The notes beneath the pieces are model-generated. The model did no database searches. It was not told the origin of the DNA and saw nothing but the letters and a program-made list of their open reading frames with translations. 13,783 nucleotides of DNA, taken from contig CAMPGU010000088.1 in the NCBI GenBank assembly GCA_946885645.1, forward strand, positions 1 through 13,783, written 5' to 3'. Both the position numbers and the translations under genes were made by a program. The DNA comes from an uncultured Haloferula sp. (lineage in GTDB: Bacteria > Verrucomicrobiota > Verrucomicrobiae > Verrucomicrobiales > Akkermansiaceae). This document shows positions 1 to 13,783 of the stretch, piece by piece. The stretch's first letter is position 1. The number at the start of each line of letters is the position of its first letter.

Positions 1-2982
1 CTCATCGGCCGGGACAACCGGAAGATGGAGGTCATCGCCATCACGGACAAGATCCGGAAAAAATCCGCCGCTTCCAAGGATGGCAAGGATGCGGGCGGCA
101 AGGATCAGTTCACCATCGGCACCCCGGAGCAGCAGCGGCCCGTGGAAACCCAGGGCGAACTCCCCTTCCAGGTCGGCGAGCTGGAGCGCGCGCTCTACGC
201 CCGCGTCGTGAAGAAATGCGGCAATCGCAACCACTGGGAGGAATGGGCGAACGACATCGCCAAGATCGCCCGGACCCACATTTCCCGCATCACCGCCATC
301 GTCTCCGATCCGGCGAATGAAAAGGAGGTCGCCGCCTTCAATGCCTTCGCCCACGAGCTGCGGGACGACCTGAACGACTCCATCACCGATGCCGAGGTGA
401 TCGAGATGCTGGCCCAGCACCTGATCACCAAGCCGGTCTTCGACGCCCTTTTCGAGGACTACTCCTTCGCCAGCCAGAATCCCGTCTCCCGCGCCATGCA
501 GGACGTGCTGGAGGTCCTCCACGAGCACCGGCTGGAAAAGGAGGCGGATACCCTGGAGCGATTCTACGCCAGCGTCCGCCGCCGCGCCGACCAGATCGAG
601 GACATCACCGCCAAGCAGAAGATCGTGGTGGAACTCTACGACAAGTTCTTCCGCAACGCCTTCCCGAAGATGACCGAGCGCCTCGGCATCGTTTATACCC
701 CGGTGGAAGTGGTGGATTTCATCATCCACAGCGTGAACGACCTCTTGAAGTCGGAGTTCGGCCAATCCCTCGGCAGCAAGGGCGTCCACATCATCGACCC
801 CTTCACCGGCACCGGCACCTTCATCACCCGCCTGCTCCAGAGCGGCCTGATCAAGCCGGAGGAACTCCCGCACAAATACAAGCACGAGATCCACGCCAAC
901 GAGATCGTCCTGCTCGCATACTACATCGCCGCCATCAACATCGAGGCCGTCTATCACGCCCTCGTCGGCGGGAAATACGTCCCCTTCGAAGGCATCTGCC
1001 TCACCGATACCTTCCAGATGTACGAGAAGGAGGACCTCGTCAGCGACCTGATGGAGCACAACAGCGCCCGCCGCAAGCGTCAGAAGAAGCTCGATATTCG
1101 GGTCATCATCGGGAACCCGCCGTATTCGGTAGGTCAGGAAATTGCTACCGACGGAACCCAGAATGTAATTTATCCGTCGCTCGATCAAAGGATCAGGGAA
1201 ACCTACGCGGAGCGTTCGGGCATCAAAATGGTGCGGGCGCTCTACGACTCTTATATTCGCGCAATTCGCTGGGCTAGTGATCGGGTTGGAAAGAGCGGTG
1301 TCGTAGGATTCGTCACCAATGGAAGCTTCCTTGAAGCAAACTCATGCGATGGCCTAAGGAAGTGTCTCGCAGACGATTTTAGTAGCATTTACGTATTCCA
1401 TTTGCGGGGGAACGCGCGCACTGCTGGGGAACAGCGTCGCAAGGAGAAAGACAGCGTTTTTGGCCAAGGAACGCGGACACCGATCGCCATTACTATTCTT
1501 GTCAAAAATCCCGGCTCAGAGCGAACCGGCGAGATCTTTTGGCACGATATTGGAGACTATCTCACTCAGGCTCAAAAGCTGGAAATCATCGCCCGCTTCG
1601 AGGGAACGTCAGGGATTCTAAAGGCGGGCGAATGGAAGAAGATTACGCCAGACTCCCACGGAGACTGGGTGAATCAACGTGATGCCTCGTTCTTGAACCA
1701 CTTAGCCATGGGGACCAAGAAGGATGGATCAGCACCGACGCTCTTCGAAACCTACTCCTGCGGCGTGAAGTCGAACCGAGATGCGTGGGTTTATAATCAG
1801 TCCCGAGGCCTCCTCATCGAAGGAATTAAAGGGTGCATCGCGTTTTTCAACGAGGAGTCGAAGAGATTCCAAGAGCTTGAGGCTCCGAAGTCAGCCAAAA
1901 GCGTTGACGAGTTTATTACCATTGATCCAACCCGGATCGCTTGGGCTGACGATCTGAAAAAGTATCTTTCCCGCGGACTGACGTTGAATTACAGCGAATC
2001 GCACGTGGTGTCCGCTCTTTACCGTCCATTCACGAAGCAATGGTTCTACGACGGCAAGCATTTGAATTGGAGCCGCTACAAGATGCCCGTGATCTTTCCT
2101 AACGGGGCGGCGAAGAATCGCGTGATCGGCGTTTCCGCTTCCGAGTCTCGAAGCGGCTTCTCCGTGCTCATCGCGGACTGCATGGTTAGCCTTCATGCCG
2201 CTGACATGGTTGGCGGGCAATATTTCCCGCTCTACCTCTACTTCGCAACGGAAAGCGATGAAGGGTCCAGCGAAGAACTGTTCAATGCCAAGAAGCACTC
2301 CGGCTCCACTCGGCGCGACGCCATCACCGACGGCGGCTTGGCGCACTTCCGGGAAAAATATCCCGCAGCGGGCGAGGGCGAGACGTTGAGGAAGGAAGAC
2401 CTGTTCTACTACGTGTATGGCCTGCTGCATTCTCCCGACTACCGCAGCCGCTACGCCGACAACTTGGGCAAGGAGCTGCCGCGCATCCCCGCGGTGAAGA
2501 CCTTCTCGGATTTCATCGCCTTTTCCCGAGCCGGGCGGGACCTCGCGCATTGGCACCTGAACTACGAGACCGTCGCCATCCATTCCGGCGCGACGCTGGA
2601 CACCGGCAAGGTCCCCCTCTCCCGGCTCCAGCCGGAGGATTACCGGGTGACCAAGATGAAATTCGCTAAGGCCAAGGACCCGGCGACCGGCAAGAGCGTG
2701 AACGACAAGAGCACGGTGATCTACAACGAGCGGATCACCATCCGGAACATCCCGCTGGAAGCCTACGACTACGTGGTCAATGGCAAGCCCGCGCTGGAAT
2801 GGGTGATGGAGCGCCAGGCCGTCACCACGGACAAGGCCAGCGGCATCGTCAACGACGCCAACCTCTGGGCCACCGAAACCATGGGCGACGCGAAGTACCC
2901 GCTGGAACTCTTCCTGCGGGTCATCACCGTAAGCCTGGAGACGATGAAGATCGTGACCTCCCTCCCTCCCCTCGACATCTAA
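1..2982 (+). CDS. Type ISP (LlaBIII-like) restriction-modification enzyme, methyltransferase and target-recognition part, 5' partial
   Basis: C-terminal part of a single-chain Type ISP enzyme, which in this family joins an Mrr-like nuclease, SF2 helicase, coupler, N6-adenine methyltransferase and target-recognition domain (about 1,600 residues). The frame is open to base 1, so the ATG at 25 is probably internal and the nuclease and helicase lie off the left edge. Counting from that ATG, a helical coupler-like region covers about 50-210. Motif X is at 224-232 (YTPVEVVDF), the SAM-binding motif I at 258-265 (DPFTGTGTF) and catalytic motif IV NPPY at 364-367. The last 600 residues should include DNA target recognition, and the end (RVITVSLET) is typical of the family. 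Codon use changes sharply just after NPPY and returns near base 2280. The next gene starts 10 bases downstream. Predicted role: methylate self DNA and cut unmodified invading DNA. Family call confident; specificity unknown. Confidence 0.9.
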   Translation, partial: LIGRDNRKMEVIAITDKIRKKSAASKDGKDAGGKDQFTIGTPEQQRPVETQGELPFQVGELERALYARVVKKCGNRNHWEEWANDIAKIARTHISRITAIVSDPANEKEVAAFNAFAHELRDDLNDSITDAEVIEMLAQHLITKPVFDALFEDYSFASQNPVSRAMQDVLEVLHEHRLEKEADTLERFYASVRRRADQIEDITAKQKIVVELYDKFFRNAFPKMTERLGIVYTPVEVVDFIIHSVNDLLKSEFGQSLGSKGVHIIDPFTGTGTFITRLLQSGLIKPEELPHKYKHEIHANEIVLLAYYIAAINIEAVYHALVGGKYVPFEGICLTDTFQMYEKEDLVSDLMEHNSARRKRQKKLDIRVIIGNPPYSVGQEIATDGTQNVIYPSLDQRIRETYAERSGIKMVRALYDSYIRAIRWASDRVGKSGVVGFVTNGSFLEANSCDGLRKCLADDFSSIYVFHLRGNARTAGEQRRKEKDSVFGQGTRTPIAITILVKNPGSERTGEIFWHDIGDYLTQAQKLEIIARFEGTSGILKAGEWKKITPDSHGDWVNQRDASFLNHLAMGTKKDGSAPTLFETYSCGVKSNRDAWVYNQSRGLLIEGIKGCIAFFNEESKRFQELEAPKSAKSVDEFITIDPTRIAWADDLKKYLSRGLTLNYSESHVVSALYRPFTKQWFYDGKHLNWSRYKMPVIFPNGAAKNRVIGVSASESRSGFSVLIADCMVSLHAADMVGGQYFPLYLYFATESDEGSSEELFNAKKHSGSTRRDAITDGGLAHFREKYPAAGEGETLRKEDLFYYVYGLLHSPDYRSRYADNLGKELPRIPAVKTFSDFIAFSRAGRDLAHWHLNYETVAIHSGATLDTGKVPLSRLQPEDYRVTKMKFAKAKDPATGKSVNDKSTVIYNERITIRNIPLEAYDYVVNGKPALEWVMERQAVTTDKASGIVNDANLWATETMGDAKYPLELFLRVITVSLETMKIVTSLPPLDI
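1126..2280 (+). other. Lower-GC mosaic segment inside the ISP gene
   Basis: From just after the NPPY codons to about 2280 the reading frame is intact, but synonymous choice shifts. Flanking codons nearly all end in G or C, whereas this block often uses GTA, GGT, GAA, ATT, GCT, GGA, AAT and TAT. Hand counts of single 60-base rows give about 47-58% GC inside (rows 1141, 1321, 1501, 1861) against 58-72% outside (rows 121, 901, 2521, 2581). Position in the protein fits the end of the methyltransferase core and the target-recognition domain. Inference: gene conversion or horizontal replacement of the specificity part. Edges are approximate. Confidence 0.6.
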
Positions 2983-2992
2983 GACACGCACG

Positions 2993-4042
2993 ATGGCTCT
3001 CTACAAATTCGGTGCCGGCGAACTCCGGCAGGTGAAGCAGAAGACGATGACCGACCTCAAGATCAGGGAGCGCGGCGACCTTCAACGTCTCCTCCGGGAC
3101 AAGATCGATGCAGTTTCTCCGGGGACTTTGGTGATTTCCGAGGAATTCAGCGGCTGGGTGGGTAGTCTGCGCCGCATCGACCTGCTGGGAATCGACCCCG
3201 ACGGCACCCTCGTCGTTTTCGAACTAAAGCGCACTGAAGATGGAGGTCACATGGATCTCCAAGGCATTCGCTATGCCGCAATGGCCTCCCTACTTTCCTT
3301 CAAAGAGGTCGTGGGGATCTATGCCGCACATCTTGCCAAGCATCAGCCGGGGGAGGATGCGGAGGCCCTGCTAGGGGAACACTTGGAACCCGGAAGCGAC
3401 GTAGAGGTGGCGGCCAAGGTGCGGATCGTGCTGGTCTCCGGGGACTTCGGCCCGGAGATTACCACCACCGTGCTGTGGCTGAGGGGTCAGGGACTGGATA
3501 TCCGCTGCGTCCGGCTAGTGCCGTATGAGGATGCGGAAGCGATCTACCTGGATGTCCAGCAGATCATCCCCATCCCGGAGGCTGCGGACTACCTGTTAAA
3601 ACTGCGGGAGCGGGAAGAACGGAAGGAGGTCGCACGGCAGGGAGAGCGGGACTTCACCCGCTTCATCGTGAGCTACGCCGGCCATCGCACGGTCCCTCTG
3701 CCAAAGAGACGGGCGATGCTGGAAATCATTCGGGCACTGATCAGCAAAGGTCACACCCCGGAGGAGATTCAGGAGGTATTCTCGGCGAATCGCTTCCTCG
3801 TGGCCCACGGGATACTACGTTCAGAGGAGGAGTTTGCGGGACAGCCGGTGGTCACAGTCCGGGACCAGTCGCCGGTTGACTTCAATTCCCAGCGCTACTT
3901 CACGGCGGAAGACGAATTGCTCCACATCGGAAGCAAGACGTATGTCTTCAGCCATCAATGGGGATCAAAGACGAGGGAAATTATGAAGAAGATTTTTGAC
4001 CGCTTTCCCCAATCAGGCATCCGGGTAGAGGAGGTCTCATGA
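2993..4042 (+). CDS. DUF91/NucS-like PD-(D/E)XK endonuclease
   Basis: A 349-residue protein whose first 120 residues match the DUF91/NucS-type nuclease pattern. There is an N-terminal E-R-x-D-L-Q helix (26-31), a catalytic aspartate in RRIDLL (D63), an E-x-K pair in VFELKR (E77, K79), and a following Q-x3-Y (Q90, Y94) as in RecB-family nucleases. All the expected acidic and lysine residues are present, so it is predicted active on DNA. The C-terminal part (about 215-349) is a second, separate domain ending in an aromatic block around KTYVFSHQWG; I do not recognise it with certainty. The start lies 10 bases after the ISP stop and the end overlaps the next start by ATGA, so the three are probably co-transcribed and the protein may be an accessory nuclease of the ISP system. 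No signal peptide or membrane segment is seen. Confidence 0.8.
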   Translation: MALYKFGAGELRQVKQKTMTDLKIRERGDLQRLLRDKIDAVSPGTLVISEEFSGWVGSLRRIDLLGIDPDGTLVVFELKRTEDGGHMDLQGIRYAAMASLLSFKEVVGIYAAHLAKHQPGEDAEALLGEHLEPGSDVEVAAKVRIVLVSGDFGPEITTTVLWLRGQGLDIRCVRLVPYEDAEAIYLDVQQIIPIPEAADYLLKLREREERKEVARQGERDFTRFIVSYAGHRTVPLPKRRAMLEIIRALISKGHTPEEIQEVFSANRFLVAHGILRSEEEFAGQPVVTVRDQSPVDFNSQRYFTAEDELLHIGSKTYVFSHQWGSKTREIMKKIFDRFPQSGIRVEEVS

Positions 4043-4818
4043 AGAAGGCCAAAGGTGATCGAGCCGGAAAACCTGCCGGGGAAGGAGATAATGAGAAGCA
4101 ACCCGACCTGGAGGAAGCCCGCCGACAGTTCCTGGTGAACGTCTTTGGCTATGCCGATCCGCCGAGCGTCTGGGAGCTTGCGCAATTGGCAGCGATGATC
4201 GGAGGGAAGATTCCCGCGAATCGCCCGGGTCAGTCAGCAGACGAGGCCGAGAGGAGTGTGGAGCTTGCGCGCGATATCTGGGACTCGGCTGGAAGGGTGA
4301 GGAAGGAAATGCAGAAGCGGCTGGACAAGGTTCGGAAAGACTTCGACGCGAGAATGCCATTCTACGGACCGCTCAAAATCGGCAGTCACTTTCTTCCACG
4401 GATTACCCAATGGGATGAAGTGGACGGCAAGGTTCCCTTCAAGCGCTACCTGGAACAAGTCATCGGGATGGCCAGGGAGGAGGACCGAGCGCGGTGGTGG
4501 CGGGCATATATTACGGCGAAGATCCGGATGGACACTCACGCCGAGCGATGGGGATATCGAGACAAGGACGAGCACCGGGAATCTCCGGAATGGTGCGAGC
4601 CCGAGGACTTTCCCATTGATGATAACGCCGTCCCGGAAGCCATCGAACACCAACGCACCCGCGGATTCGATATTGGATTCACCGCAAGCTACTTCCTCGA
4701 AGAATTCCGGACGTGGCGTTTGGGAATGAAGACTCCCACGAAAAAGGCCGATTCCCCGGTTTCATTGGAGGACGCCGTTAGAAATGGCTTGGAGGCGGAG
4801 AATGCTGCCGAATCCTGA
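4039..4818 (+). CDS. Unrecognised 259-residue protein of the defence operon
   Basis: I do not recognise the family. The start is well supported: AGGAGG at 4029-4034 lies four bases before an ATG that overlaps the previous stop (ATGA), indicating translational coupling to the nuclease gene. The protein is hydrophilic, without signal peptide or membrane segment. Residues 1-30 are Lys/Glu/Gly-rich and likely disordered. About 70-110 is a charged helix (RKEMQKRLDKVRKDF). The middle is Trp- and Arg-rich (RARWWRAYITAKIRMD) and could contact nucleic acid or a partner protein. The last 30 residues are again charged. Its place behind an ISP enzyme and a nuclease suggests a cytoplasmic accessory role, but no catalytic motif is visible. 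A real gene by coupling and codon use; function unknown. Confidence 0.75.
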   Translation: MKKAKGDRAGKPAGEGDNEKQPDLEEARRQFLVNVFGYADPPSVWELAQLAAMIGGKIPANRPGQSADEAERSVELARDIWDSAGRVRKEMQKRLDKVRKDFDARMPFYGPLKIGSHFLPRITQWDEVDGKVPFKRYLEQVIGMAREEDRARWWRAYITAKIRMDTHAERWGYRDKDEHRESPEWCEPEDFPIDDNAVPEAIEHQRTRGFDIGFTASYFLEEFRTWRLGMKTPTKKADSPVSLEDAVRNGLEAENAAES

Positions 4819-4827
4819 AAAAACCTG

Positions 4828-4850
4828 CCGGGAGCTTGAGATTCTCCCGG
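4828..4850. terminator. Hairpin just after the defence operon
   Basis: A perfect 7-bp stem (CCGGGAG 4828-4834, CTCCCGG 4844-4850) with a 9-base loop starts 9 bases after the stop of the 259-residue gene. It overlaps a second dyad, CCCGGATTCCGGG (4846-4858). On the + strand no T-run follows, so it is not a classical intrinsic terminator in that direction. Read from the - strand, TTTTTT follows the stem after four bases, but no - strand gene is seen here. It may stop or attenuate read-through between the two gene groups. Confidence 0.35.
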
Positions 4851-4899
4851 ATTCCGGGGAGCAAATCGGCCGAATCCGTGAGATTTCCGGGCGAATCCG
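4848..4899. repeat. Three copies of GAATCCG, one inverted
   Basis: GAATCCG occurs in direct orientation at 4872-4878 and 4893-4899, with starts 21 bases apart (about two helical turns). It occurs inverted (CGGATTC) at 4848-4854. The two direct copies share an extra 5' C. The cluster lies in the gap just upstream of the excisionase-like gene. It could be an operator for that protein or an excision/attachment accessory site. Short repeats like this can arise by chance in GC-rich DNA. Confidence 0.35.
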
Positions 4900-4958
4900 C
4901 GAAGGGGGCCACTCGGGACGGTCGATTGCAGGGATGCCCCCATGGCATGGTGGTGCCG

Positions 4959-5183
4959 ATGAACGCATCACCAAACCACCCGCAACTTGTCGGCGCAGAG
5001 GACTGCATCCGGATCGTCTTTCCCTGCGAGAACTCCCGGCCCGGCCTCCGCACCTTCCGCGACTGGCAGGCGAAGGGCTACATCCCCGTCCATAAAATCG
5101 GCCGACGTACCTACTTCGACCCGGAGCAGGTCCGCGCCGCGCTTGAGCGCCGTTTCCGCATCCATCCCACCGAAGTCCGCTGA
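4959..5183 (+). CDS. Excisionase/AlpA-like small DNA-binding protein
   Basis: A 74-residue protein with the layout of MerR-superfamily winged-helix proteins of the excisionase/AlpA type. A first helix (TFRDWQAKGYIP, with the conserved Trp-x-x-x-Gly-x-I/L-Pro turn) is followed by a basic wing (HKIGRRTYFDPEQV) and a last helix (RAALERRF). Such proteins bind operators or act as Xis factors in integrative elements and prophages. The frame is open back to an ATG at 4836, but residues before 4959 look like translated non-coding repeat sequence, so I choose ATG 4959; ATG 4947 is possible. No strong Shine-Dalgarno is seen. It is the first gene of the replication module and lies directly after the repeat cluster, which could be its own operator. 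DNA-binding role likely; Xis versus activator is undecided. Confidence 0.7.
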   Translation: MNASPNHPQLVGAEDCIRIVFPCENSRPGLRTFRDWQAKGYIPVHKIGRRTYFDPEQVRAALERRFRIHPTEVR

Positions 5184-5283
5184 CCAAACCGGGCCGACCT
5201 CGTGGAGATCGACCCGGCGGAAGTGAGAAGCTGCCAGAACGCTATCCCTTCGCGAGCGAGGCCGCAATCCATCATCGCAGGCC

Positions 5284-6354
5284 ATGCCTCAATCCCCGCA
5301 ATCCATCACCGCGGAGGCGCTCGCCGCATCCGCAGGTGGAGCCCCAAAGCGACAGTGGCTTGAAATCTGGAAACCCTCCGACTTCGCCGCCTTTCAACCG
5401 CCCGCGGACTTCGTCCTCATGGGGGACTGCCACCTCACCCGCGGAGGCATCACCGTTCTCGGCGGCTGGCCGGGGGTCGGCAAGAGCCGCGCTGCGCTCG
5501 GGCTCGCCATCGCCGGAGCGACCGGCAAGGCGTGGCTCGGACATCAAGTTCACGCCCGGTTCCGGACTCTCATCATCCAGATCGAGAATGGACAGTGGCG
5601 CTTGAAGCACGAACTGGCAGATGCCGTTCCCGATGGCGGCCTCGACGACTGGCTGCGGATCACTCCGCCACCGACATACGGTCTCGCGTTTCATGAGGCG
5701 GGCTTTCGCGAGCGGGTCAGCGAGATCATCCGGGAATTTCGGCCCGGACTCGTCATCATCGATCCTTGGAACCGGGTCGCAGAGGGAGACAAGCAAGGCG
5801 ACTACCGTCAGGCCCTGGAAGCGATCCTGGAGTGCCTGCCTGCCGATCCTAGCGAGAAGCCTGCGGTGCTCATCATCCATCACATGAGGAAGAAGGGCAG
5901 CGACTCCACCCGCAAGCAGGGCCGGGACCTCCTGCACGAATTGGCCGGTAGCTACCAAATCGGCAGCGCGGCGCGGTGTGTCTTCGTGCTCGAACCCGGC
6001 AGCAACGAGACCACGGACCCGACCGTCGTCCTCACCTGCTGCAAGAACAACGATGGACGAGAAGGCGAGCCGAGCGCCTGGACGCGCTGCAACGGCCTTT
6101 TCTCCTCCGCCGAGGATTTCGACATGGAAGCCTTTCTCTCATCCGAAGCGCCGGCACGGGGCCGATCCACTTCCCCCGATGCCGTGGCTAAAGTTCTTCG
6201 CGGCATGGCGGGAGAAGCAAAGCCCAAGGCCGTCGGGCGGCTCGTTTCAGCCGGTGTTTGCGCGAAGTCCAAGGCTTACCAGATCCTCGCGGATCATCCA
6301 AACGTCGAGGAGGATTCTTCGGGCAAGCTATGGTGGAAGGAGCAGGCTGGATGA
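5284..6354 (+). CDS. RepA-like RecA-fold ATPase/helicase (AAA_25 type)
   Basis: A 356-residue P-loop ATPase of the RepA/DnaB-like RecA superfamily found in plasmids, prophages and islands. Walker A is GGWPGVGKS (60-68). The strand with a catalytic glutamate follows at IIQIEN (E101), Walker B is GLVIID (D160), and the strand-4 histidines are IIHH (199-200). The next segment, AGSYQIGSAARCVFVLE (221-237), matches the 'GS-x-x-IxxAxR' region of this family. Residues about 297-335 look like a small helix-turn-helix tail. Predicted role: hexameric helicase or DNA-loading ATPase that works with the primase encoded next. The start ATG 5284 follows 100 bases after the excisionase-like gene; a conventional Shine-Dalgarno is not obvious. 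Related to RSF1010 RepA in fold; whether it is a true helicase is inferred. Confidence 0.8.
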   Translation: MPQSPQSITAEALAASAGGAPKRQWLEIWKPSDFAAFQPPADFVLMGDCHLTRGGITVLGGWPGVGKSRAALGLAIAGATGKAWLGHQVHARFRTLIIQIENGQWRLKHELADAVPDGGLDDWLRITPPPTYGLAFHEAGFRERVSEIIREFRPGLVIIDPWNRVAEGDKQGDYRQALEAILECLPADPSEKPAVLIIHHMRKKGSDSTRKQGRDLLHELAGSYQIGSAARCVFVLEPGSNETTDPTVVLTCCKNNDGREGEPSAWTRCNGLFSSAEDFDMEAFLSSEAPARGRSTSPDAVAKVLRGMAGEAKPKAVGRLVSAGVCAKSKAYQILADHPNVEEDSSGKLWWKEQAG

Positions 6355-6371
6355 AGCGCGTCGGCCATTAT

Positions 6372-6417
6372 TTCCACACCCGATTCCACGGAATTTCCAT
6401 GCGGAAGTCCTGTGGAA
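6372..6417. repeat. TTCCA(C/T) cluster, possible iterons
   Basis: TTCCAC at 6372 and 6384 and TTCCAT at 6395 are spaced 12 and 11 bases apart, and an inverted copy (GTGGAA) lies at 6412-6417. The same TTCCA unit begins the large inverted repeat at 6431. Spacing near one helical turn suggests a protein-binding array, for example an origin or an operator. The units are short and degenerate, so support is modest. Confidence 0.35.
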
Positions 6418-6430
6418 GACGGTCGATTGC

Positions 6431-6473
6431 TTCCATTCCATCCACGGCCTCCGGGAAAATGGATGGAATGGAA
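6431..6473. repeat. Perfect 14-bp inverted repeat upstream of the primase gene
   Basis: TTCCATTCCATCCA (6431-6444) and its exact reverse complement TGGATGGAATGGAA (6460-6473) flank a 15-base spacer. This is the strongest dyad I found in the gaps of the window. It lies in the 139-base gap between the ATPase and primase genes, ending 20 bases before the primase start. Possible roles are an operator, a hairpin controlling primase translation, or a single-strand initiation site like RSF1010 ssiA/ssiB, which also pair an inverted repeat with a dedicated primase. No T-run follows, so a terminator is unlikely. Confidence 0.65.
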
Positions 6474-6493
6474 AAGCTCAACATTCCCCATCA

Positions 6494-7477
6494 ATGACAC
6501 CGGCATCGCGAACGCTCCACTTCGACCTCCTCGAAAAGGTCCGGCTCCACATCTCCGGCAAGATCACCGCCCGGTGCCCCGCTTGCGCGGAAGAGGGTGG
6601 TGACCGAAAAGGCAATCACCTCGTGATATTCCCCGATGACCGCTTTGCCTGCGCTGCGCACGGGGGAGACGGGGAACATCGAAAGCGCATCATGGCGCTC
6701 ATCGGCGTCCGCAGCGGTATCCAGCCCGATCCCGAGCAACGGCGGCAATGGCGCGAACGCAGCGCCATCGAACAACGCCGGAGAACTGAGGCCCTCCGCC
6801 TTGCCGAGTCAGCCCGGGCTCACCGGCGCGATCTCATCCGCCGCTTCACATGGTACCCGACCGACGTGTGGCATGACTCCCCGCAACGGATCGACGGCGA
6901 CCTTGTCGCAACCGAGCCCACGCATTTCCTCGCCAGCCTGTTCCGCCCCTCCGATGTCCTCTGGACCGGCGAAGTCCACCACAGCGGCAGCATTATCCAC
7001 GCGGAACGGTGGAGGCCCTGCCGGGACTGGTACAGGGCCGCCGGTCCCATCGGCCCCATGACCACGCCGGCCGTCTGGAAGCCCGAAACCCATTCCCGCG
7101 CCTCCGGCAATGTCCTTTCCGCACCCTACACCGTCCTCGACTTCGACGGCTTCGACGGGATCAAGCCCGCCTCGCGGGACGCTCTTTCCCGGCACGTGCA
7201 CGACTCGCTCGCCCTCGTCCGCTGGCTTCGGGAGGGCATGGGCTGGCATCTTGCCGCGATCCTCTGGACCGGCGGCAAGAGCCTTCACGCATGGTTCCAT
7301 ACACCCCCGCCGGCCGTGCTCGGAAGCCTGCATCCTGTCGCCAAATCATTCGGGATGGACTCCGGGCTCATCGGTCGCCCGGAGCATCCTTGCCGCCTTC
7401 CGGGACAGGTTCACCGCATGACGCATAGGATATCAAGGGTGCTTTGGCTACAATCCTCCCCCTCCCTTCTCCTTTGA
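6494..7477 (+). CDS. Zinc-ribbon plus AEP-type primase
   Basis: A 327-residue primase-like protein. An N-terminal zinc ribbon has Cys-Pro-Ala-Cys at 28-31 and Cys-Ala-Ala-His at 53-56, as in CHC2-type primase fingers. A helical, Arg/Glu-rich linker covers about 80-115. The C-terminal half carries archaeo-eukaryotic primase motifs: DFD in TVLDFDGFD (D216, D218), the 'SxH' type motif GGKSLHAWF (H265), a third acid in GMDSG (D289), and RLPG (301-304). Predicted role: make primers for replication of the element together with the ATPase encoded upstream. The frame is open back to 5978 inside the ATPase gene, but homologous-looking sequence begins only near ATG 6494, just after the inverted repeat. 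The stop overlaps a possible TTG start of the next gene. Primase fold is confident; the exact subfamily is not. Confidence 0.75.
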   Translation: MTPASRTLHFDLLEKVRLHISGKITARCPACAEEGGDRKGNHLVIFPDDRFACAAHGGDGEHRKRIMALIGVRSGIQPDPEQRRQWRERSAIEQRRRTEALRLAESARAHRRDLIRRFTWYPTDVWHDSPQRIDGDLVATEPTHFLASLFRPSDVLWTGEVHHSGSIIHAERWRPCRDWYRAAGPIGPMTTPAVWKPETHSRASGNVLSAPYTVLDFDGFDGIKPASRDALSRHVHDSLALVRWLREGMGWHLAAILWTGGKSLHAWFHTPPPAVLGSLHPVAKSFGMDSGLIGRPEHPCRLPGQVHRMTHRISRVLWLQSSPSLLL

Positions 7478-7788
7478 AACGAAGCATCCCGCCTCACGAA
7501 AAGGCCATCCTCCGGGAGATGATCCTCCGTGTGGTTCGTTGCGGCTATCATCATCGCAGGGTGGCTGCGACCGTCGGCATTCACCGGGCAACCCTCTACC
7601 GCTGGCTTGCGTCCGATCCGGACTTCGGGGAACAATTCGCCAAGGCTTGGGAAGACGGAGCCGAACGGCGGGACTTCCTCCGGTGGTTCAATCACCCCTT
7701 TCGGGGGTTCCGCCCTCCGGCCGACAGGTGTACAAGAAACTTTCCTCGTTACGGGCATCCGCGAATCATCCGCGGACAAATGAAGTAA
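7474..7788 (+). CDS. Small helix-turn-helix protein, terminase-small-subunit-like
   Basis: A 104-residue protein with a clear homeodomain-like helix-turn-helix at about 29-46 (VAATVGIHRATLYRWL). It is followed by an acidic/aromatic helix (DPDFGEQFAKAWEDGAERR), the arrangement seen in phage terminase small subunits and related phage or island regulators. The C-terminus is basic with an aromatic-proline motif (NHPFRGFRPP). The start is uncertain: I choose TTG 7474, whose last two bases overlap the primase stop TGA; TTG 7444 in the same frame is possible. Neither has a convincing Shine-Dalgarno. It ends the + strand module and could recognise element DNA for packaging, bind the origin (RepC-like), or regulate transcription. 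The sequence does not decide among these. Confidence 0.6.
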   Translation: MKRSIPPHEKAILREMILRVVRCGYHHRRVAATVGIHRATLYRWLASDPDFGEQFAKAWEDGAERRDFLRWFNHPFRGFRPPADRCTRNFPRYGHPRIIRGQMK

Positions 7789-7869: not shown

Positions 7870-7902
7870 GCCGAACTCGCATTTTTTGTTAGCGAGCTCG
7901 GC
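7870..7902 (-). terminator. Long hairpin at the end of the PEP-CTERM gene
   Basis: GCCGAACTCGC (7870-7880) faces GCGAGCTCGGC (7892-7902) over an 11-base loop holding the stop codon of the PEP-CTERM gene. In - strand RNA the single imperfect position is a G-U pair, so all 11 pairs form. In + strand RNA it is an A·C mismatch. The asymmetry suggests selection for the - strand transcript, as a terminator or 3'-end protector between convergent gene groups. No T-run follows the stem. Confidence 0.45.
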
Positions 7903-8581
7903 GGCGGCGGAGCAAGCCGATGGCAGCCAAGGGCCCCAGATACATCAAGGTGGGCTCCGGGACAGAAACAGGAGCATCATCCAAGGTGAAGACAAAGGAA
8001 CTTGCACCTGTAGAAACCCATTGGTCGGTCTGCAAGTTCAGGGAGGCTCCAGTGGTCCCCGTGCCTTGCCGGTGGCTCCAGAACCAAGCCGAATCTTCGG
8101 GATCGCTTGTGTCAACGTCGCCGGGCGTATCGTTGTAGATGCTGACCCAGTAAGTTCCTGTGAGCAATTCGACAGGGGCAGAGAAGTTTAAAGAGATCCG
8201 GTATATATCAAATCCCATGGAATCAACACCGGTGTCAACGCTATAGCTCGCTACAGACTGAGAGCTTCCGATGATCGCCCCGGGGGTCCAGCCGTCACCG
8301 TTATCGTGGTAAAAGGCTATCGAAAATGCATCCGCAACCGGGGGCGTGTTTCCGCTGGCGTACATGCCTTCGACGGTAGCCGAGAGGAGCGTTGTCCCTG
8401 ACGTCAGGTTGAATTTGGTTGCTTGGATGAACTGCCGATCCGACAGGCTGCCCTCGGGCGGCGGCTCCATCGGGGCAGGGCTTCCGCTTGAATAAACAAC
8501 GGCGGCCGAACAAGCAGAACGGCAGATGAGGAAGATCGCGAAAGCGAATCGGAAGTATTTATAGAATGCGAATTTCGGCAT
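7889..8581 (-). CDS. PEP-CTERM sorted secreted protein
   Basis: A 230-residue exported protein. An N-terminal signal peptide has basic residues (K3, K8, R11) and a hydrophobic stretch AFAIFLI, with likely cleavage near SACSAA (about residue 26). The C-terminus is a classic PEP-CTERM signal at 207-230: VPEP, a short hydrophobic helix (LMYLGPLAAIGLL) and a basic RRRRAR tail. In this family an exosortase processes the tail, usually in exopolysaccharide-producing bacteria. The middle is rich in Ser, Thr, Gly and aromatic residues in alternating pattern, consistent with a beta-sandwich, and resembles 'choice-of-anchor' type surface domains (AFSIAFYHDNGDGWTPG). No Shine-Dalgarno is evident before the ATG. 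It follows the immunity candidate by 52 bases but shows no functional tie to it. Confidence 0.85.
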   Translation of the reverse strand: MPKFAFYKYFRFAFAIFLICRSACSAAVVYSSGSPAPMEPPPEGSLSDRQFIQATKFNLTSGTTLLSATVEGMYASGNTPPVADAFSIAFYHDNGDGWTPGAIIGSSQSVASYSVDTGVDSMGFDIYRISLNFSAPVELLTGTYWVSIYNDTPGDVDTSDPEDSAWFWSHRQGTGTTGASLNLQTDQWVSTGASSFVFTLDDAPVSVPEPTLMYLGPLAAIGLLRRRRAR

Positions 8582-8633
8582 TTTAGGGGTGCTTCTAAAA
8601 GGTGAAATGAAAATCGGTGCGGGGTGTAATAGG

Positions 8634-9467
8634 TCAGGAGACGGGAGGATAGCCCGGCATTAACTCGGGCGGCCCGCCAGCCGGTTCATCCGAAATCCCG
8701 CCGGAGCCGGGCGGCCATTCGCAATCCTCGTGGAAGAGGAGCCGCCACAGCATTTGTTGGATGCGACCTTGTTCGCCGTCGGGCCGGGTGAAGGGATGCG
8801 GCCAGCTTTTGAGGTAGAGGAATTGCGGCGTGTCGCGGACTTCGAGGAAAAAGTCGGCGGCTAATACCTCCTCCTTCCTGCACGGAGCGAACTGCCAGAA
8901 CGCGGGGCCGAGCCACATTTCTGCGGAGACCCCCAGCGAGAGTGCATCTCTGACGTGATTTCGACCTGGATTTCTGGATGTATCCAAGACCATCCGATTC
9001 ACAGGAGGATCGCCTTTCTCATACTGTTTGAAATTCACCGCTGAGCCGAATTGCCTCGTATAGCGTCCGATGTCCTCGCAGTTCTGCCAAGCGGAATACA
9101 ACGACAGGGTGGACTTGGCCACCACCAGTGGTGCCATCGAGGAAAGAAGCTCCACGAGATCGCTCCAATCGATTGGCAGATTTCCCGCATCGAGGGAGGC
9201 GATTGAGAATCCCTGAAGTCCTCCATCAAGCGGTGTTGGATGATAGGTGATGATTTGAGGGGTTCTGTCGCCACCGCTTTGAACGGTGAATCCAGAAGCG
9301 GGATCCAAGGAAATCTCATGCTCGATGTCTTGCGGCGACATCTCCTTGAGGAAATCCCGGAAATTTCGACGAGAGCCAATCCCAGGGTTGATACGATAGG
9401 CTTCTGACGCGGCGCCTTGGTTATGAAGGAATTCATGGGCTTTCCGCCAAATCTGGGCGGCGTCCAT
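8634..9467 (-). CDS. Candidate immunity protein for the upstream toxin
   Basis: A 277-residue soluble protein with no signal peptide or membrane segment. I do not recognise the family. It begins right behind the toxin gene's stop on the same strand, the usual place of a polymorphic-toxin immunity gene. I choose ATG 9467, 40 bases after that stop, preceded by a purine-rich GGGGCGAGG. An ATG at 9536 would overlap the toxin by 29 bases and add a Cys/His-rich stretch that looks unlike a protein start. Visible features are a Trp/Pro/Phe-rich C-terminal third (YLKSWPHPFTRPDGEQGR, EDCEWPP), a mixed alpha/beta pattern, and a Pro/Gly-rich end. Predicted to act in the cytoplasm by binding and neutralising the nuclease tip. 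The role rests on position, size and solubility only. Confidence 0.6.
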   Translation of the reverse strand: MDAAQIWRKAHEFLHNQGAASEAYRINPGIGSRRNFRDFLKEMSPQDIEHEISLDPASGFTVQSGGDRTPQIITYHPTPLDGGLQGFSIASLDAGNLPIDWSDLVELLSSMAPLVVAKSTLSLYSAWQNCEDIGRYTRQFGSAVNFKQYEKGDPPVNRMVLDTSRNPGRNHVRDALSLGVSAEMWLGPAFWQFAPCRKEEVLAADFFLEVRDTPQFLYLKSWPHPFTRPDGEQGRIQQMLWRLLFHEDCEWPPGSGGISDEPAGGPPELMPGYPPVS

Positions 9468-9507
9468 GTCCTCGCCCCAGAAACTGCAATGGAGAGAGGG
9501 GCGCAGA

Positions 9508-12500
9508 TCACGGTGCTGGCAGAAAATCATACTCATGGATATTGAATGTGATCGTAAGGCCGTTGTTTGATGGATTCAGTGTGGCGATGTAGTCATCGAG
9601 CTGCTGCTGGAGGGCTGACGTGTCCAATCCCGGCTTCTTCCTGATGTCTAAAATTAAGTCGGTCTTGCCATTGCTCACCCCATAGTCCCGCATGGCTAGA
9701 ACGGCCTCCTTCATTCGGGTGATGGTATTGGAATTGACGGTCCCGATGCTTTTCAACTGGAGAGCTTGGACACCTTTGATGAAGTCCACCGCTTCCGAGG
9801 TGGGGAGGTGAGCCCATCCGGCGGGCTTGTACACCCGGTACCAAAGTTCCAACTCGACCAACAAGCCGCGGACGATCGGGGCCTTCCAGTTCGTCTCCAA
9901 TCCCTCCTCGAATTTCCAAGCATACCCGGGGAGAGGTTCGCTGAGGAAGTTCTTGAGCCGCTGAACGCCGTTGGAGCTCAAGTCGTCCAATGGAGGACGA
10001 TTCACGAACTCGGCCGCATTGCCTTTGAAAGCCCGCAGGAAGTCCTCGATCCATTCGTCGATCTCGCCTCCCGATCGCTCCAGAATCAACCGCTGTTCGA
10101 CCACGTCCATGAAGTTTTTCATAACGGTCTCGTCGCACTCGTCTCCGAGCAGGTGGGCGATTTGGGCGGCCCGTTTGTGAATGACGGCCTCACTGCCCTC
10201 TTTGGCCATTAGTTTCCGGATATTTCCGTCGGGGACCAGGTCATCGAGGAATTCCTTGAAGTTGTAAGTGGCGCGGTTGAACCCTTGCCGGGAGAAGAGC
10301 GATTCAAGGATGTCGAACGCGCACTTCTTGATGGTCGGGCCGGTCGGTTCGACGGCGGCGGCGAGCATGCCGCGCTCGTACATCGCGCGGATGATGGCGT
10401 CGCCGAGGCCGGAATCGGCCATGATTTTCTTCATCCAGTGACCGCGGATTGCCACGGTGGCGGCGGTGCGCTTGGCCACATTGGCGGCGAGCGAAATGCC
10501 GCCCTTGGCCGCAACCTGGGCGATTTTGACCGTGCCTCCGGTCAGGGCCCCGATGGCGACCTGTTCGCACAAGTAGCCGAACGTATAGCCGAAGGTATAA
10601 CACTGCTCGCGCATGAGTTGGGTGCCTTCGGCGAAGAGCCCCGTCTTGTCGAGCGGCGTGTCCAGCCAGGCGGCGCGCTCGGCACCGTCGGCCATCCGGT
10701 TGCCGAAGTCGTCGAACCACTCTTCCAGCGCGTTGACCGTGCTGTACCAGAGGTTGGTGTTGACGGCGATGGAGACCGTGATGCCCTTCGCCACGGCCTG
10801 CCAGAACCGCTTCTTGAAGCCTTCGAAGGTGGTCAGATCCGCGGCAACCGTGGCCAACGGTTGGAAGACCTGCTTGTCGAAGAAGTCGGTGACCATCGCG
10901 TGAAGCTCGGACATCCGGGCGCGCGGGTCGTTCTGCCATTTCTCGATTTCGTTCAGCAGGGCCTGGGCAGACCAGTCGGCGACGATGACGGCCCCGCTCA
11001 AGATGAGCCCGACGAATTCGAGATCGTCCTTGAGACCGGCCACCACGCCCTCGCCCAAACCGCGGACGACGATCGTCACGCCCTCGACCTGGTGGCCGAT
11101 GAGCATGAAGGGAATGAGGGTGGGCGTTGACCAATGGTGAGGGTCGTCGAGACCTTCCCCGTCGAGGAGGTTGTTCATCACCGTGACACCGCCGCCGCCG
11201 CCGGTGTTGAAGCCGAAGCCCCTGCCTGCGGCCCAACCGGTCACCAGATCGATGGTTTGGGCGAACTGCGCGTCTGCCTGGAGCGTTCGTTCGATGCTGC
11301 CGAGGCTTTGCCCCTGCACCTTCGCCTCAACCTTGATCTTGCCGTAGGCCTCTCCCGGCGCACCGGACACGAGGTAGAATTCCACCCGGTTGAACGAAAG
11401 AGGATCGCGCAGGAACCAGACGCTCGGATCGCTGACGAGGGTTCCCCAACGGTCCTCGTAGCCGAGCATCCCTTTGACGGATTCGTAAACGCGGGTGTCG
11501 CCTCCGCCCACGAGATAGCCATGGGTGCCGAAGTCCCGTCCGGTATCCGGGCTGGTGATGGTCAGTTCCATCTGCTCGAAGCCCGGAAGGATGGTCACCG
11601 CACCCGCGAACATGCGGTCTATCGTGTGGGTCTGGACCGAGTAGAGGACGACGCGGCGGTCGGAGTAGTTCCGTTTGAATTCCGAGGCATCCGCCGCAAC
11701 GTCGTTGGCTTCGTCATTCAACAGACGGCGGGTGGGATCTAGCGTTCCGTCCGAGGGATTCCAGGAGTCGATCAGCATGCCGCCATGGTCTCCTTGGGAC
11801 TGGACCTTGAAGGTGTAATCGAAGTCCGGGCCCTCGGCCGAGATCCCAAGGCTAGGATTGGCGGGTCGGCTCGCAAGGTTGGAGCCCTGCCACTGGATTT
11901 GGAACGAATAGGACTCGCCCTTGCGGAAGATATCCTTGGTCTCTTGCTTGTACTGGCCGAAGCCGCCGGAGCGGACCGTGTAAATGCGCTCCTCTTCGCC
12001 CGTCTCGCGGTCGATTCGATAGCAGTTGAGAACATAGTCCTCACTTTCGCTGCCGCTTTGGTCGCCCACTCCAAGGAGAATGGAGACCTTCTCTTCCGGC
12101 GAAGGAGATTGCCCGACGTCGCCCGGATCGTTGGGATTGGAACCTCCATCGACCTCGTCCCCGTCGTTAACGGTATCGGGGTTATCGGGGTCTCCGCCGT
12201 CGGAGTTGGGGTTGGTGGGATTGGTGTTATACTGCCACTCCTCACGGTTGGTCAGGCCGTCTCCGTCGGGATCGAGCAAACCGTCTGAGGGATCGAGGGG
12301 GTCGAGAATCGCCGGATATTTCAGCTCCCATCCGTCGGGGATGAGATCGCCGTCGGTGTCGGCCTGCGCGATGTCGGTCCCGGCAATTTGCTCGGCAAGG
12401 TCGCTGGCCTCGTCCCGGTCGGTGTCATGTTCGGCGGGCTGCCACTCGAACGGGGAGACCACGAAATCGAACTCCGCGGGCGTCGCCGTGGCGTCGGAGT

Positions 12501-13783
12501 TCGCGTCCCGCCACAGGCGGGTTTTGGTCTCGGTGATGTCCCACAGGCCGTCGCGGTCGATGTCCTCGTGGTGGAGGGCGGCGATTTCGGTGGTGGTAAC
12601 GGCGTCCGACCAAGCCCGGAGCCGGTCGAAACGACCGCGGGCCACGGCCTGGTTGCCGGGTTGGGCGACGATGCTGTCGGGAGACGGACCGTAAACGCGG
12701 CCCAGGCTGATGCCCGCGTATTGGTTGGCGGTGATTGTCTCGAAGGTATGCGATTTCTCCCCTGCCTTCTGCCCGTCGATGTAGAGGGTGGTTTTCCCCC
12801 CCGCGCGGGTCATGACGTAGTGGTGCCACTTGCCGTCGTCGATGGTACCGAGGTCGCGGTCCAGCATCACGCCCGAAACCACGGTGGTCGGCGGGCTGAT
12901 GAGCGTGCCGCCGTTGTGGTTGGTGTAGGAATAGGTGCCCGCGCGGAGGATTTCCCGTCCGCCGATTTTCTGGACCCAGATGCCGTTGACCTTGGCGGTG
13001 ACCAGTCCCCAGTTGGGAGAACCGTTGGTGATGTGCGGCAGGTAGTAGTGATGGGTGAAGAGGCCGACCGGCCGACCGTCGGAATTCTCGACGGACCCCT
13101 CGTCCAAGGCCGCCCAGAAGGATACCGACCAGGTGGTGCGGTTGTTGAGAAGGGACGGCGGGATGGTGACGAATCCTCCGGCGTGGCTGGTCGCCTTCGA
13201 GGGCATCCCCAAACCATGCGTGAACACCGAAAAGGAGGTGGCATGCCGCCCGCCGGTGGTTTTGTCCGGGAACCGCCAGGGCGTGTGGCCCGTGGGCGGG
13301 CTCGTGATCGTGTCGTAGGATTCGAAGTCCCAGCGACCGATCATGTTGGTGGACAGGGTGGTCCCAACCAAGCCTGCCCCGTCGGGATCGGCGACAGCAT
13401 TGTTGGAAAGCGGCGTCGTGTCCGTGTTGTCGGGGATCCCGTCGAGATCGGTGTCGGAGCTGTAAGGGTTGTAGCCCAGAGCCAGTTCTTCCCAGGTGGT
13501 CAGGGTATCGCCGTCGGGATCATCGTCCTCGATCTTCACGCGCCAGAAGAGCCGGTCGGGAATCGTGCCGTCCTCATGAATCGCATCGACCGCCAGGCTG
13601 ATGTTCTGGCCGGTGCCGGGCATCAGCTCGCCGAAGTCCGTCCAGGCGACGAGATCCGGCGACATGGCGAGCTTGTACACTTTACCCTGGACCGACGGCC
13701 ACTTGAGGATGAACAGCCCTTCGGCATCGGGGTGCTTCGCGATGTCGCTTTTCACCCAGCCCGCGGGAAGCGCGGTCGAGAAT
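9508..13783 (-). CDS. Giant LamG/TSP3 polymorphic-toxin-like protein with nuclease tip, 5' partial
   Basis: The frame is open to the right edge; the first in-window start is GTG 13755, likely internal, so the N-terminus and export signal are missing. Counting 1,415 residues from that GTG, a 'WPSVQGKVYKLAMSPDLVAW' motif comes first. DxDxDG calcium repeats follow (about 77-110) and then a LamG-type concanavalin-like domain (about 137-395, with GKWHHYVMTRAGGKTTLYIDG). More TSP3-like repeats lie at about 398-545 and beta-rich domains at about 555-835. A Gly-rich linker (about 840-870) leads into hydrophobic Gly/Ala helices (about 880-925, 990-1103), possibly for membrane passage. The last 130 residues are a separate tip with E1301, D1324 in AVDFI and Q1333-x-K1335 (LQLKS), a pattern fitting a PD-(D/E)XK or Mrr-like nuclease. 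An immunity candidate follows. Likely a secreted or surface toxin against other cells; the nuclease call is by motif only. Confidence 0.7.
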   Translation of the reverse strand, partial: FSTALPAGWVKSDIAKHPDAEGLFILKWPSVQGKVYKLAMSPDLVAWTDFGELMPGTGQNISLAVDAIHEDGTIPDRLFWRVKIEDDDPDGDTLTTWEELALGYNPYSSDTDLDGIPDNTDTTPLSNNAVADPDGAGLVGTTLSTNMIGRWDFESYDTITSPPTGHTPWRFPDKTTGGRHATSFSVFTHGLGMPSKATSHAGGFVTIPPSLLNNRTTWSVSFWAALDEGSVENSDGRPVGLFTHHYYLPHITNGSPNWGLVTAKVNGIWVQKIGGREILRAGTYSYTNHNGGTLISPPTTVVSGVMLDRDLGTIDDGKWHHYVMTRAGGKTTLYIDGQKAGEKSHTFETITANQYAGISLGRVYGPSPDSIVAQPGNQAVARGRFDRLRAWSDAVTTTEIAALHHEDIDRDGLWDITETKTRLWRDANSDATATPAEFDFVVSPFEWQPAEHDTDRDEASDLAEQIAGTDIAQADTDGDLIPDGWELKYPAILDPLDPSDGLLDPDGDGLTNREEWQYNTNPTNPNSDGGDPDNPDTVNDGDEVDGGSNPNDPGDVGQSPSPEEKVSILLGVGDQSGSESEDYVLNCYRIDRETGEEERIYTVRSGGFGQYKQETKDIFRKGESYSFQIQWQGSNLASRPANPSLGISAEGPDFDYTFKVQSQGDHGGMLIDSWNPSDGTLDPTRRLLNDEANDVAADASEFKRNYSDRRVVLYSVQTHTIDRMFAGAVTILPGFEQMELTITSPDTGRDFGTHGYLVGGGDTRVYESVKGMLGYEDRWGTLVSDPSVWFLRDPLSFNRVEFYLVSGAPGEAYGKIKVEAKVQGQSLGSIERTLQADAQFAQTIDLVTGWAAGRGFGFNTGGGGGVTVMNNLLDGEGLDDPHHWSTPTLIPFMLIGHQVEGVTIVVRGLGEGVVAGLKDDLEFVGLILSGAVIVADWSAQALLNEIEKWQNDPRARMSELHAMVTDFFDKQVFQPLATVAADLTTFEGFKKRFWQAVAKGITVSIAVNTNLWYSTVNALEEWFDDFGNRMADGAERAAWLDTPLDKTGLFAEGTQLMREQCYTFGYTFGYLCEQVAIGALTGGTVKIAQVAAKGGISLAANVAKRTAATVAIRGHWMKKIMADSGLGDAIIRAMYERGMLAAAVEPTGPTIKKCAFDILESLFSRQGFNRATYNFKEFLDDLVPDGNIRKLMAKEGSEAVIHKRAAQIAHLLGDECDETVMKNFMDVVEQRLILERSGGEIDEWIEDFLRAFKGNAAEFVNRPPLDDLSSNGVQRLKNFLSEPLPGYAWKFEEGLETNWKAPIVRGLLVELELWYRVYKPAGWAHLPTSEAVDFIKGVQALQLKSIGTVNSNTITRMKEAVLAMRDYGVSNGKTDLILDIRKKPGLDTSALQQQLDDYIATLNPSNNGLTITFNIHEYDFLPAP

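Follow-up and report, generated by a model that had tools for sequence, protein, structure and literature searches.

A probable integrative, phage-satellite-like element with Type ISP restriction cargo and an RSF1010-like replication module in Verrucomicrobiales

Results

We found that the window, the whole 13,783-nucleotide stretch of Haloferula DNA that was analyzed, has a single run of open, co-oriented reading frames (positions 1..7788, + strand), with opposite-strand genes beyond it. The run encodes, in order, a Type ISP restriction-modification enzyme, the candidate defence protein PDC-S11, a protein without a family, an AlpA/HTH_17 protein, an AAA_25 ATPase, an AEP-type primase and a small TerS-like protein. 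A counterpart in H. helveola has an integrase, an ISP enzyme, the primase, a TerS-like protein and a 64-bp att repeat. We consider it rather likely that the window contains the right-hand end of one member of a family of integrative, phage-satellite-like elements in Verrucomicrobiales, with a replication module like that of RSF1010. The element probably travels as a passenger in particles of viruses of Verrucomicrobiota.

An earlier note on this DNA had described the order AlpA/excisionase-like protein, RepA-like ATPase, primase and TerS-like HTH protein, and open reading frame and profile scans confirmed it. Scans of seven proteins from 1-7788 with Pfam and PHROG found no structural gene apart from the TerS-like one. 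The flanking genes (7889..13755, - strand), which have weak matches to PEP-CTERM, TSP3 and laminin-G families, are probably host genes outside the element.

Restriction and defence genes

Type ISP restriction-modification enzymes are LlaGI-like. The first gene in the window (1..2982, + strand) is open at the left edge and encodes the C-terminal ~990 residues of such an enzyme, as recognized by Pfam (Type_ISP_C, 343 bits; ISP_coupler, 171 bits) and PADLOC (PDLC03597, profile positions 661-1640 of 1646). Because the PADLOC match starts at profile position 661, ~660 residues of the enzyme should lie to the left of the window. The coupler, methyltransferase and Type_ISP_C domains that mark a Type ISP enzyme are present, and the N-terminal part is beyond the window edge. 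The protein shares Type_ISP_C and ISP_coupler domains with known Type ISP enzymes and is 52% identical to the 1736-aa ISP enzyme of the H. helveola island. In contrast to the LlaGI-like enzymes, that relative sits on a tRNA-integrated, satellite-like island.

The next gene (2993..4042, + strand) encodes a nuclease-like protein, the candidate defence protein PDC-S11 (PADLOC, 368 bits; Pfam NucS_C, 19.5 bits, below the cut-off). It is overlapped by a gene (4039..4818, + strand) for an uncharacterised 259-aa protein that had no meaningful family in four profile libraries and no match in the 43 loci compared.

The replication module

The AlpA/excisionase-like HTH_17 protein (4959..5183, + strand) had an HTH_17 score of 20 bits, below the cut-off of 27, and matched the PHROG excisionase profile at 7e-4. 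Its relatives at other loci are 80% (L053), 74% (L056) and 42% (L064 and L065) identical. It is followed by a RepA-like ATPase (5284..6354, + strand), a putative replicative helicase that was above the cut-off for Pfam AAA_25 (73 bits) and has 176 relatives; public contigs of up to 18.4 kb encode an ATPase that is 99% identical to it.

The primase (6494..7477, + strand) is the hallmark of the element family. It belongs to no Pfam or NCBIfam family and has 393 relatives. In the alignment, a C-C-C-H zinc finger and the residues DFD / SxH are invariant; the latter we take to be the motifs of AEP primases. A comparison with PDB sequences at E up to 10 gave two matches, the better of which was the AEP domain of PrimPol (E 0.2). 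Distribution of the primase is patchy: it was detected at E 1e-30 in 25 of 386 genomes of the order, three of which had two or three matches. Across relatives, the one conserved primase is found next to interchanged helicases (AAA_25, DUF5906/D5 or DUF3987). The primase alignment also matched five loci in viral contigs, through its zinc-finger part. A search of 50,697 phage records with the primase found nothing.

Between the ATPase and primase genes is a hairpin (6431..6473), a perfect 14-bp inverted repeat with a 15-nt loop, that is a candidate single-strand initiation site or origin. None of 300 shuffled sequences equalled it. Six other AAA_25-type loci have a hairpin in the equivalent position, with arms that differ or are alike in sequence and are complementary every time. 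At L055, L057 and L058 the hairpins occur in mutually inverted pairs. Hairpins are also present at loci that have no cassette, which the origin idea leaves unexplained. We also considered whether the hairpins are genome-wide REP-like repeats: one hairpin core occurred 9 times in 8 genomes, equal to its reversed control (9), but all nine copies of that core sit in hairpins, at four loci.

RepA is the ATPase of the RSF1010 replication module. The same plasmid has an AEP-class primase, RepB', and hairpin initiation sites, ssiA and ssiB, one per strand (PMC4434180). The window resembles it in having an ATPase, an AEP-class primase and a hairpin, and the hairpins in verrucomicrobial elements are sometimes in mutually inverted pairs. 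The two also differ. The window primase has a zinc finger and RepB' does not, the verrucomicrobial hairpin adjoins the primase gene, the hairpin arms vary between elements, and RepC was not recognized. In addition, searches with window proteins, at the thresholds applied, did not match the sequences of RepA or RepB' chains of solved structure.

It is possible, if improbable, that the DNA is a plasmid-derived, RSF1010-like integrative replicon that moves by conjugation or transformation without packaging, and that the TerS-like protein is a DNA-binding replication accessory. The combination of ATPase, AEP-type primase and hairpin, the inverted hairpin pairs and the overlap of the TerS-like gene with the primase gene are all consistent with this. 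In contrast, neither the primase nor the ATPase had a match in 72,556 plasmid records, a Pfam scan of ten window proteins detected no relaxase, and relatives have phage-type integrases at tRNA genes as well as TerS-like proteins. The earlier note had offered an RSF1010-like scheme as the alternative to a satellite. A hairpin that resembles ssi sites accompanies the ATPase-primase module, and such a scheme is compatible with a satellite.

The TerS-like protein

The last gene of the run (7474..7788, + strand) encodes a small protein with an Sf6-TerS-like DNA-binding domain and a conserved HPFRGxRPP tail. Its TTG start at 7474 is the one that matches the H. helveola protein, and in both elements the gene overlaps the primase stop. 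The Sf6_terminase score was 24.7 bits (below the cut-off of 27), the PHROG terminase small subunit profile matched at 8e-6, and there were weak matches to other HTH families, including transposase HTHs. In Foldseek searches with the predicted structure, the four best PDB matches were all Sf6 TerS (probability 1.00, 2.1-2.3 Å); the E value was only 0.09, no match reached 0.001 or better, and the TerS oligomerisation region was not recognized. Judged from this model and the profiles, the protein resembles TerS DNA-binding domains.

At E 0.01 the sole match of the window protein in the 50,697 phage records was the TerS of Akkermansia phage Chantilly, which adjoins TerL, and two of the three phage-record matches of the TerS-like family directly precede an annotated terminase large subunit. 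In viral contigs the window protein matched 15 loci through its HTH part; of 30 pattern matches to the TerS-like alignment none was confirmed, nor was either of two for C11, a second TerS-like family. The PHROG terminase small subunit profile, and no other PHROG, matched C11 weakly in 4 of 18 members. An integrase was present at 9 of the 18 C11 loci and a tRNA gene was within 1.3 kb at 9 of 18. TerS was absent among the best 50 of 352 PDB matches to the C11 model.

Borders and bordered relatives

A profile scan of the window revealed no integrase, and the window has no tRNA gene. Comparison of the right border with 64 tRNA sequences detected no tRNA 3' fragment, the best exact match being 12 bp, and there was no convincing direct repeat across that border (longest, 15 bp). 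A flanking gene (8634-9536) was uninformative as a probe for an empty site: of the 195 family genomes only 7 had it, and in two of these it was present as tandem copies.

The closest full relative among those found is the H. helveola island (493531-505882, 12.35 kb), which is bordered by a perfect 64-bp direct repeat in tRNA-Ser. It contains genes for an integrase (27.5 bits; cut-off 27.1), an ISP enzyme, an AlpA-like protein recognized by eye in the translation, a DUF3987 helicase, the primase, a TerS-like protein and a second TerS-like protein. Order-wide, eight islands, that of H. helveola and seven others, combine an integrase with direct repeats at a tRNA gene. In the seven, the repeats are 31-63 bp, at tRNA-Ser, -Met, -Arg and -Cys, and the integrases were called by Pfam or by a custom profile. 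Fourteen of 23 loci in the direct-repeat test had no repeat.

We compared ten tRNA-Ser(TGA) loci from 18 genus genomes. Only in H. helveola were the primase, the TerS-like gene and C11 within ~1.5 kb; at most of the loci the match was limited to the tRNA itself. At this site the genes are not fixed; the earlier note had named fixation across the genus, together with a lack of integrase and border repeats, as what would speak against a mobile island. A joined-flank search of the genus genomes found no clean empty site for the H. helveola island, because the left flank and the tRNA were never together in another genome; the result indicates only variable occupation of the tRNA. The gene flanking the L056 cassette was in 2 of 18 genus genomes, one of them G108 itself.

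The proposal of a satellite-like island is partly supported: the integrase, att repeats and repeated cassettes named as its test were all found in relatives. In the window itself no integrase or border was visible, and a search limited to tyrosine-type integrases gave none in the 20-kb loci of five AAA_25-type integrated relatives (L055-L058 and L061) and no match to PF00589 out to 70 kb. Those five relatives, together with a right side that has no att or tRNA fragment, are what might be expected if the window copy had decayed or become immobile and were now a resident cassette of AlpA, ATPase and primase genes that has no integrase and sits beside restriction genes. We regard this as unlikely: the genes of the window copy have open, co-oriented reading frames and share the order ISP, AlpA, helicase, primase, TerS-like with the bordered island of H. 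helveola, and two loci (L008 and L060) combine ATPase, primase and integrase. Still less probable, to the point of being very doubtful, is an ordinary prophage or prophage fragment. A prophage could have the integrase of the relatives, the TerS-type domain and the primase/helicase modules. However, the gene inventory between the H. helveola repeats, with four proteins scanned by Pfam and PHROG, had no recognized terminase large subunit, portal, capsid or tail gene, and five C11 islands measure just 5-9 kb.

Comparison with known satellites

Phage satellites are described as elements of 7-20 kb that have att repeats, an integrase, and regulatory and replication genes, and that lack structural genes (PMC13376191). 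Relatives of the window element have the direct repeats, and the window has the regulatory and replication genes (AlpA-like, AAA_25 and AEP-type primase). The H. helveola island and those at L059 (10.6 kb), L066 (7.8 kb), L167 (9.0 kb) and L170 (7.5 kb) are within the size range, L171 (5.9 kb), L175 (5.3 kb) and L178 (5.2 kb) are smaller, and the window copy is at least 7.8 kb.

Phage-inducible chromosomal minimalist islands (PICMI) of Vibrionaceae are described as small, with an integrase, AlpA (PF12728 or PF05930) and primase families DUF3987 or DUF5906, and as protecting the host from other phages (PMC10803314). DUF3987 and DUF5906 occur in verrucomicrobial islands too, and of the PICMI set H. 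helveola has int and DUF3987, with AlpA judged from its translation. In contrast to PICMI, which by that description are next to fis, the eight bordered verrucomicrobial relatives are at tRNA genes; the elements add a zinc-finger AEP-type primase and TerS-like proteins, and the window has AAA_25 in place of DUF3987/DUF5906. PICI of Gram-negative bacteria are described as having int, AlpA, a primase/rep module with an origin, sometimes terS, accessory genes and att (PMC6092414). The verrucomicrobial family has broadly comparable kinds of genes and att sites, but its putative TerS counterpart joins a DNA-binding domain to another tail.

Discussion

The mechanism that we infer for the satellite-like element extends to the integrase and borders of the window copy, origin function, induction and packaging. 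A tyrosine integrase encoded outside the window would insert the element, by analogy at a tRNA gene, and the AlpA-like protein would govern its excision and its induction. Replication by the RepA-like ATPase and the zinc-finger primase would start at the hairpin that separates their genes. The TerS-like protein, presumably translationally coupled to the primase, would bind the element's own DNA and either bring it to the terminase of a helper phage or take packaging away from that terminase. The ISP enzyme and PDC-S11 would be defence cargo.

A bolder version, which we put forward only tentatively, is that these elements are an undescribed, order-wide satellite family that has one zinc-finger AEP primase, interchangeable helicases, element-specific hairpin origins and a primase-coupled, stripped-down TerS consisting of the DNA-binding domain and the HPFRGxRPP tail, with no oligomerisation domain. 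Coupling of TerS to the primase would then hand satellite DNA straight to the helper's packaging motor, or poison helper packaging.

The earlier note had supposed that such a satellite would be new for Verrucomicrobiota. In the literature searched we found no description of phage satellites in the phylum; one related paper leaves satellites out of its analysis. If our reading is correct, a phylum of environmental and gut relevance would have satellites of its own that carry restriction genes. H. helveola, an environmental strain that grows in culture, would then offer a way to test how satellite replication is linked to packaging, and Akkermansia phage Chantilly a way to test the relation to TerS.

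The element in the window and its closest full relative

We found that the element part of the window (1-7788) contains seven genes, all in the same orientation, with an opposite-strand cluster beyond. The first gene, open at the left edge, encodes an ISP restriction enzyme; PADLOC profile positions suggest that ~660 residues are missing beyond that edge. It is directly followed by PDC-S11 and a gene of no assigned family, and then by AlpA/HTH_17, an AAA_25 ATPase, a primase, and a TerS-like protein. The window thus shows, co-oriented, the order (AlpA/excisionase-like, RepA-like ATPase, primase, TerS-like) described in an earlier note. The opposite-strand genes (7889-13755) gave weak matches (PEP-CTERM; TSP3/laminin-G) or had no family; relatives of the middle gene occur in tandem in two other genomes.

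Haloferula helveola (G131, 5.68-Mb contig) contains a 12.35-kb island in tRNA-Ser(TGA); the two 64-bp repeat copies that bound it, at 493531 and at 505819, are identical. The island encodes an integrase (PF00589, 27.5 bits vs a cut-off of 27.1; PHROG integrase, 3e-28), a 132-aa frame, an ISP of 1736 aa (52% identity to that of the window), a 282-aa protein with no assigned function, an AlpA-like HTH recognised in translation only, a DUF3987 protein, a primase (62% identity), a TerS-like protein (48% identity), and, last, C11, a second TerS-like family. In both window and island, the stop of the primase gene and the start of the TerS-like gene overlap. No structural gene was recognised in the island, from which four proteins were run through Pfam and PHROGs. 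Thus, the integrase and border repeats that the earlier note proposed looking for are present in this relative. The note's opposing possibility, that the genes are fixed at one locus across the genus, did not hold for the H. helveola set: among ten tRNA-Ser loci from 18 genus genomes, primase, TerS-like gene and C11 lie within about 1.5 kb only in H. helveola, and one other locus has an integrase. In most of the ten loci the match was confined to the tRNA; G246 and G253 also matched in the right flank.

A family of bordered islands

The repeated cassettes anticipated in that note were also found: eight islands in total combine an integrase with a direct repeat at a tRNA. Three carry the primase (L054, L059, L066) and five carry C11 (L167, L170, L171, L175, L178; integrases called by a custom profile). 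L170 matches DUF3987 and TOPRIM-primase, the replication-gene match of L167 is weak, and no replication gene was recognised in L171, L175 or L178. The helicase beside the primase varies (AAA_25, DUF5906/D5, or DUF3987). Direct-repeat searches gave two clear results in a first set of 11 loci (L059, L066) and five in a second set of 23, with none in 14, among them L182, whose contig ends inside the searched range; in the second set the L131 repeat was ambiguous and that of L064 was at chance level. The L072 result is void because the searched ranges overlapped. L184, also of the second set, has a 30-bp repeat at tRNA-Arg without a recognised integrase.

The primase

The window primase has no family in Pfam or NCBIfam. 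It has 393 relatives; among the best 120, all five bearing organism names are from Verrucomicrobiota. Named relatives of the AAA_25 ATPase are likewise from Verrucomicrobiota, save one MAG protein labelled Pseudoalteromonas. The zinc finger is invariant in the primase alignment (n=27), as are DFD / SxH residues that we take to be AEP primase motifs. With an E limit of 10, two PDB sequences matched, and a PrimPol AEP domain scored better (E 0.2). We ran the profile at E 1e-30 on 386 genomes of the order, an even draw from a larger group; it matched in 25 of them, two or three times each in G015, G257 and G295. At L129:11260-12213, the zinc finger is instead joined to a TOPRIM domain (TOPRIM-type primase). 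It was also matched in five IMG/VR contigs (L012-L016).

TerS-like proteins

Across 17 aligned members of the TerS-like family, W, HP, RG and RPP residues are invariant. The family has 28 matches at E 1e-6, spread over 25 of the 386 genomes; one MAG protein of the family carries a cyanobacterial label. The model of the window protein has a pLDDT of 78, with 92-98 in the blocks that cover residues 21-80. Its best match is Sf6 TerS with prob 1.00, but with a Foldseek E of 0.09. Searched against 50,697 phage records, the window protein gave a single match, the TerS of Akkermansia phage Chantilly (E 4e-3), which adjoins TerL. The H. helveola homologue matches Chantilly and two further phages (E 6e-3 to 7e-2); in one of these two, a gene annotated as TerL lies 0.2 kb downstream of the match, and in the other the matched gene is followed by an unannotated 510-aa frame. 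These matches are weak in score and mutually consistent. A scan of viral contigs with the HPFRGxRP motif gave no confirmed member of the family.

C11 is present in 22 of the 386 genomes (E 1e-4). The PHROG terminase small subunit is matched by 4 of 18 members, and Terminase_2, below cut-off, by one of three members scanned. The 50 best PDB matches listed for the model include no TerS, and there was no match in phage records, so we hold the assignment of C11 as a terminase small subunit with moderate confidence.

A hairpin between ATPase and primase

The ATPase-primase gap of the window contains a perfect 14-bp inverted repeat (6431-6473), equalled in 0 of 300 shuffles. Scores of at least 12 occur upstream of the primase in 7 of 24 loci, and in 7 of the 223 windows taken as controls (p 7e-5, Fisher test). 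These loci are related to one another, and some of the control windows in them are themselves such hairpins. Seven of nine AAA_25-type loci have one or more perfect repeats (12 bp or longer) in the gap from ATPase to primase, centred on CCTAGG in five; L008 and L060 have none. Besides the window, hairpins with mostly CCTAGG loops are in L055 (9480, 9620), L056, L057, L058, L061 and L067. The arms are element-specific yet always complementary (the L067 arm is that of the window).

L055, L057 and L058 have two mutually inverted copies, recalling ssiA/ssiB of RSF1010 (PMC4434180), a likeness in keeping with the alternative of an RSF1010-like, plasmid-derived integrative replicon. We propose that the hairpin is a replication origin, and go no further because alike hairpins occur at loci without the cassette. 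By profile, neither ATPase nor primase is present at L200 (5642-12905), L201 (7346), L202 (7292 and 7739) or L203 (7699-8485), whose hairpins are clustered, paired or single.

Mobility

We favor a phage-satellite-like element, compared here with features of PICMIs (PMC10803314) and PICIs (PMC6092414) and with a satellite size range (PMC13376191). In the literature searched on satellites in Verrucomicrobiota or Akkermansia and on Haloferula islands, we found no report of such elements.

Among loci with the ATPase type of the window, L008, L060 and L182 (the last without primase) have an integrase. No integrase of the tyrosine type was found in the 20-kb loci L055, L056, L057, L058 and L061 with a custom profile, nor a PF00589 match within 70 kb in these genomes. 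One genome has the AAA_25-primase cassette twice without a nearby integrase (L057, L058). Because same-ATPase relatives split in this way and no att was seen at the right side of the window, it is from the analogous H. helveola island that we infer mobility of the window copy.

In 18 loci inspected of the 28 TerS-like matches, five have an integrase within 6 kb of the TerS-like gene, and in eight this gene is 244-369 bp from a tRNA gene (L126, L128, L130, L131, L133, L134, L137, L141; seven of these without a recognised integrase). It is possible that such HPFRG genes near tRNAs without an integrase are footprints of past integrations.
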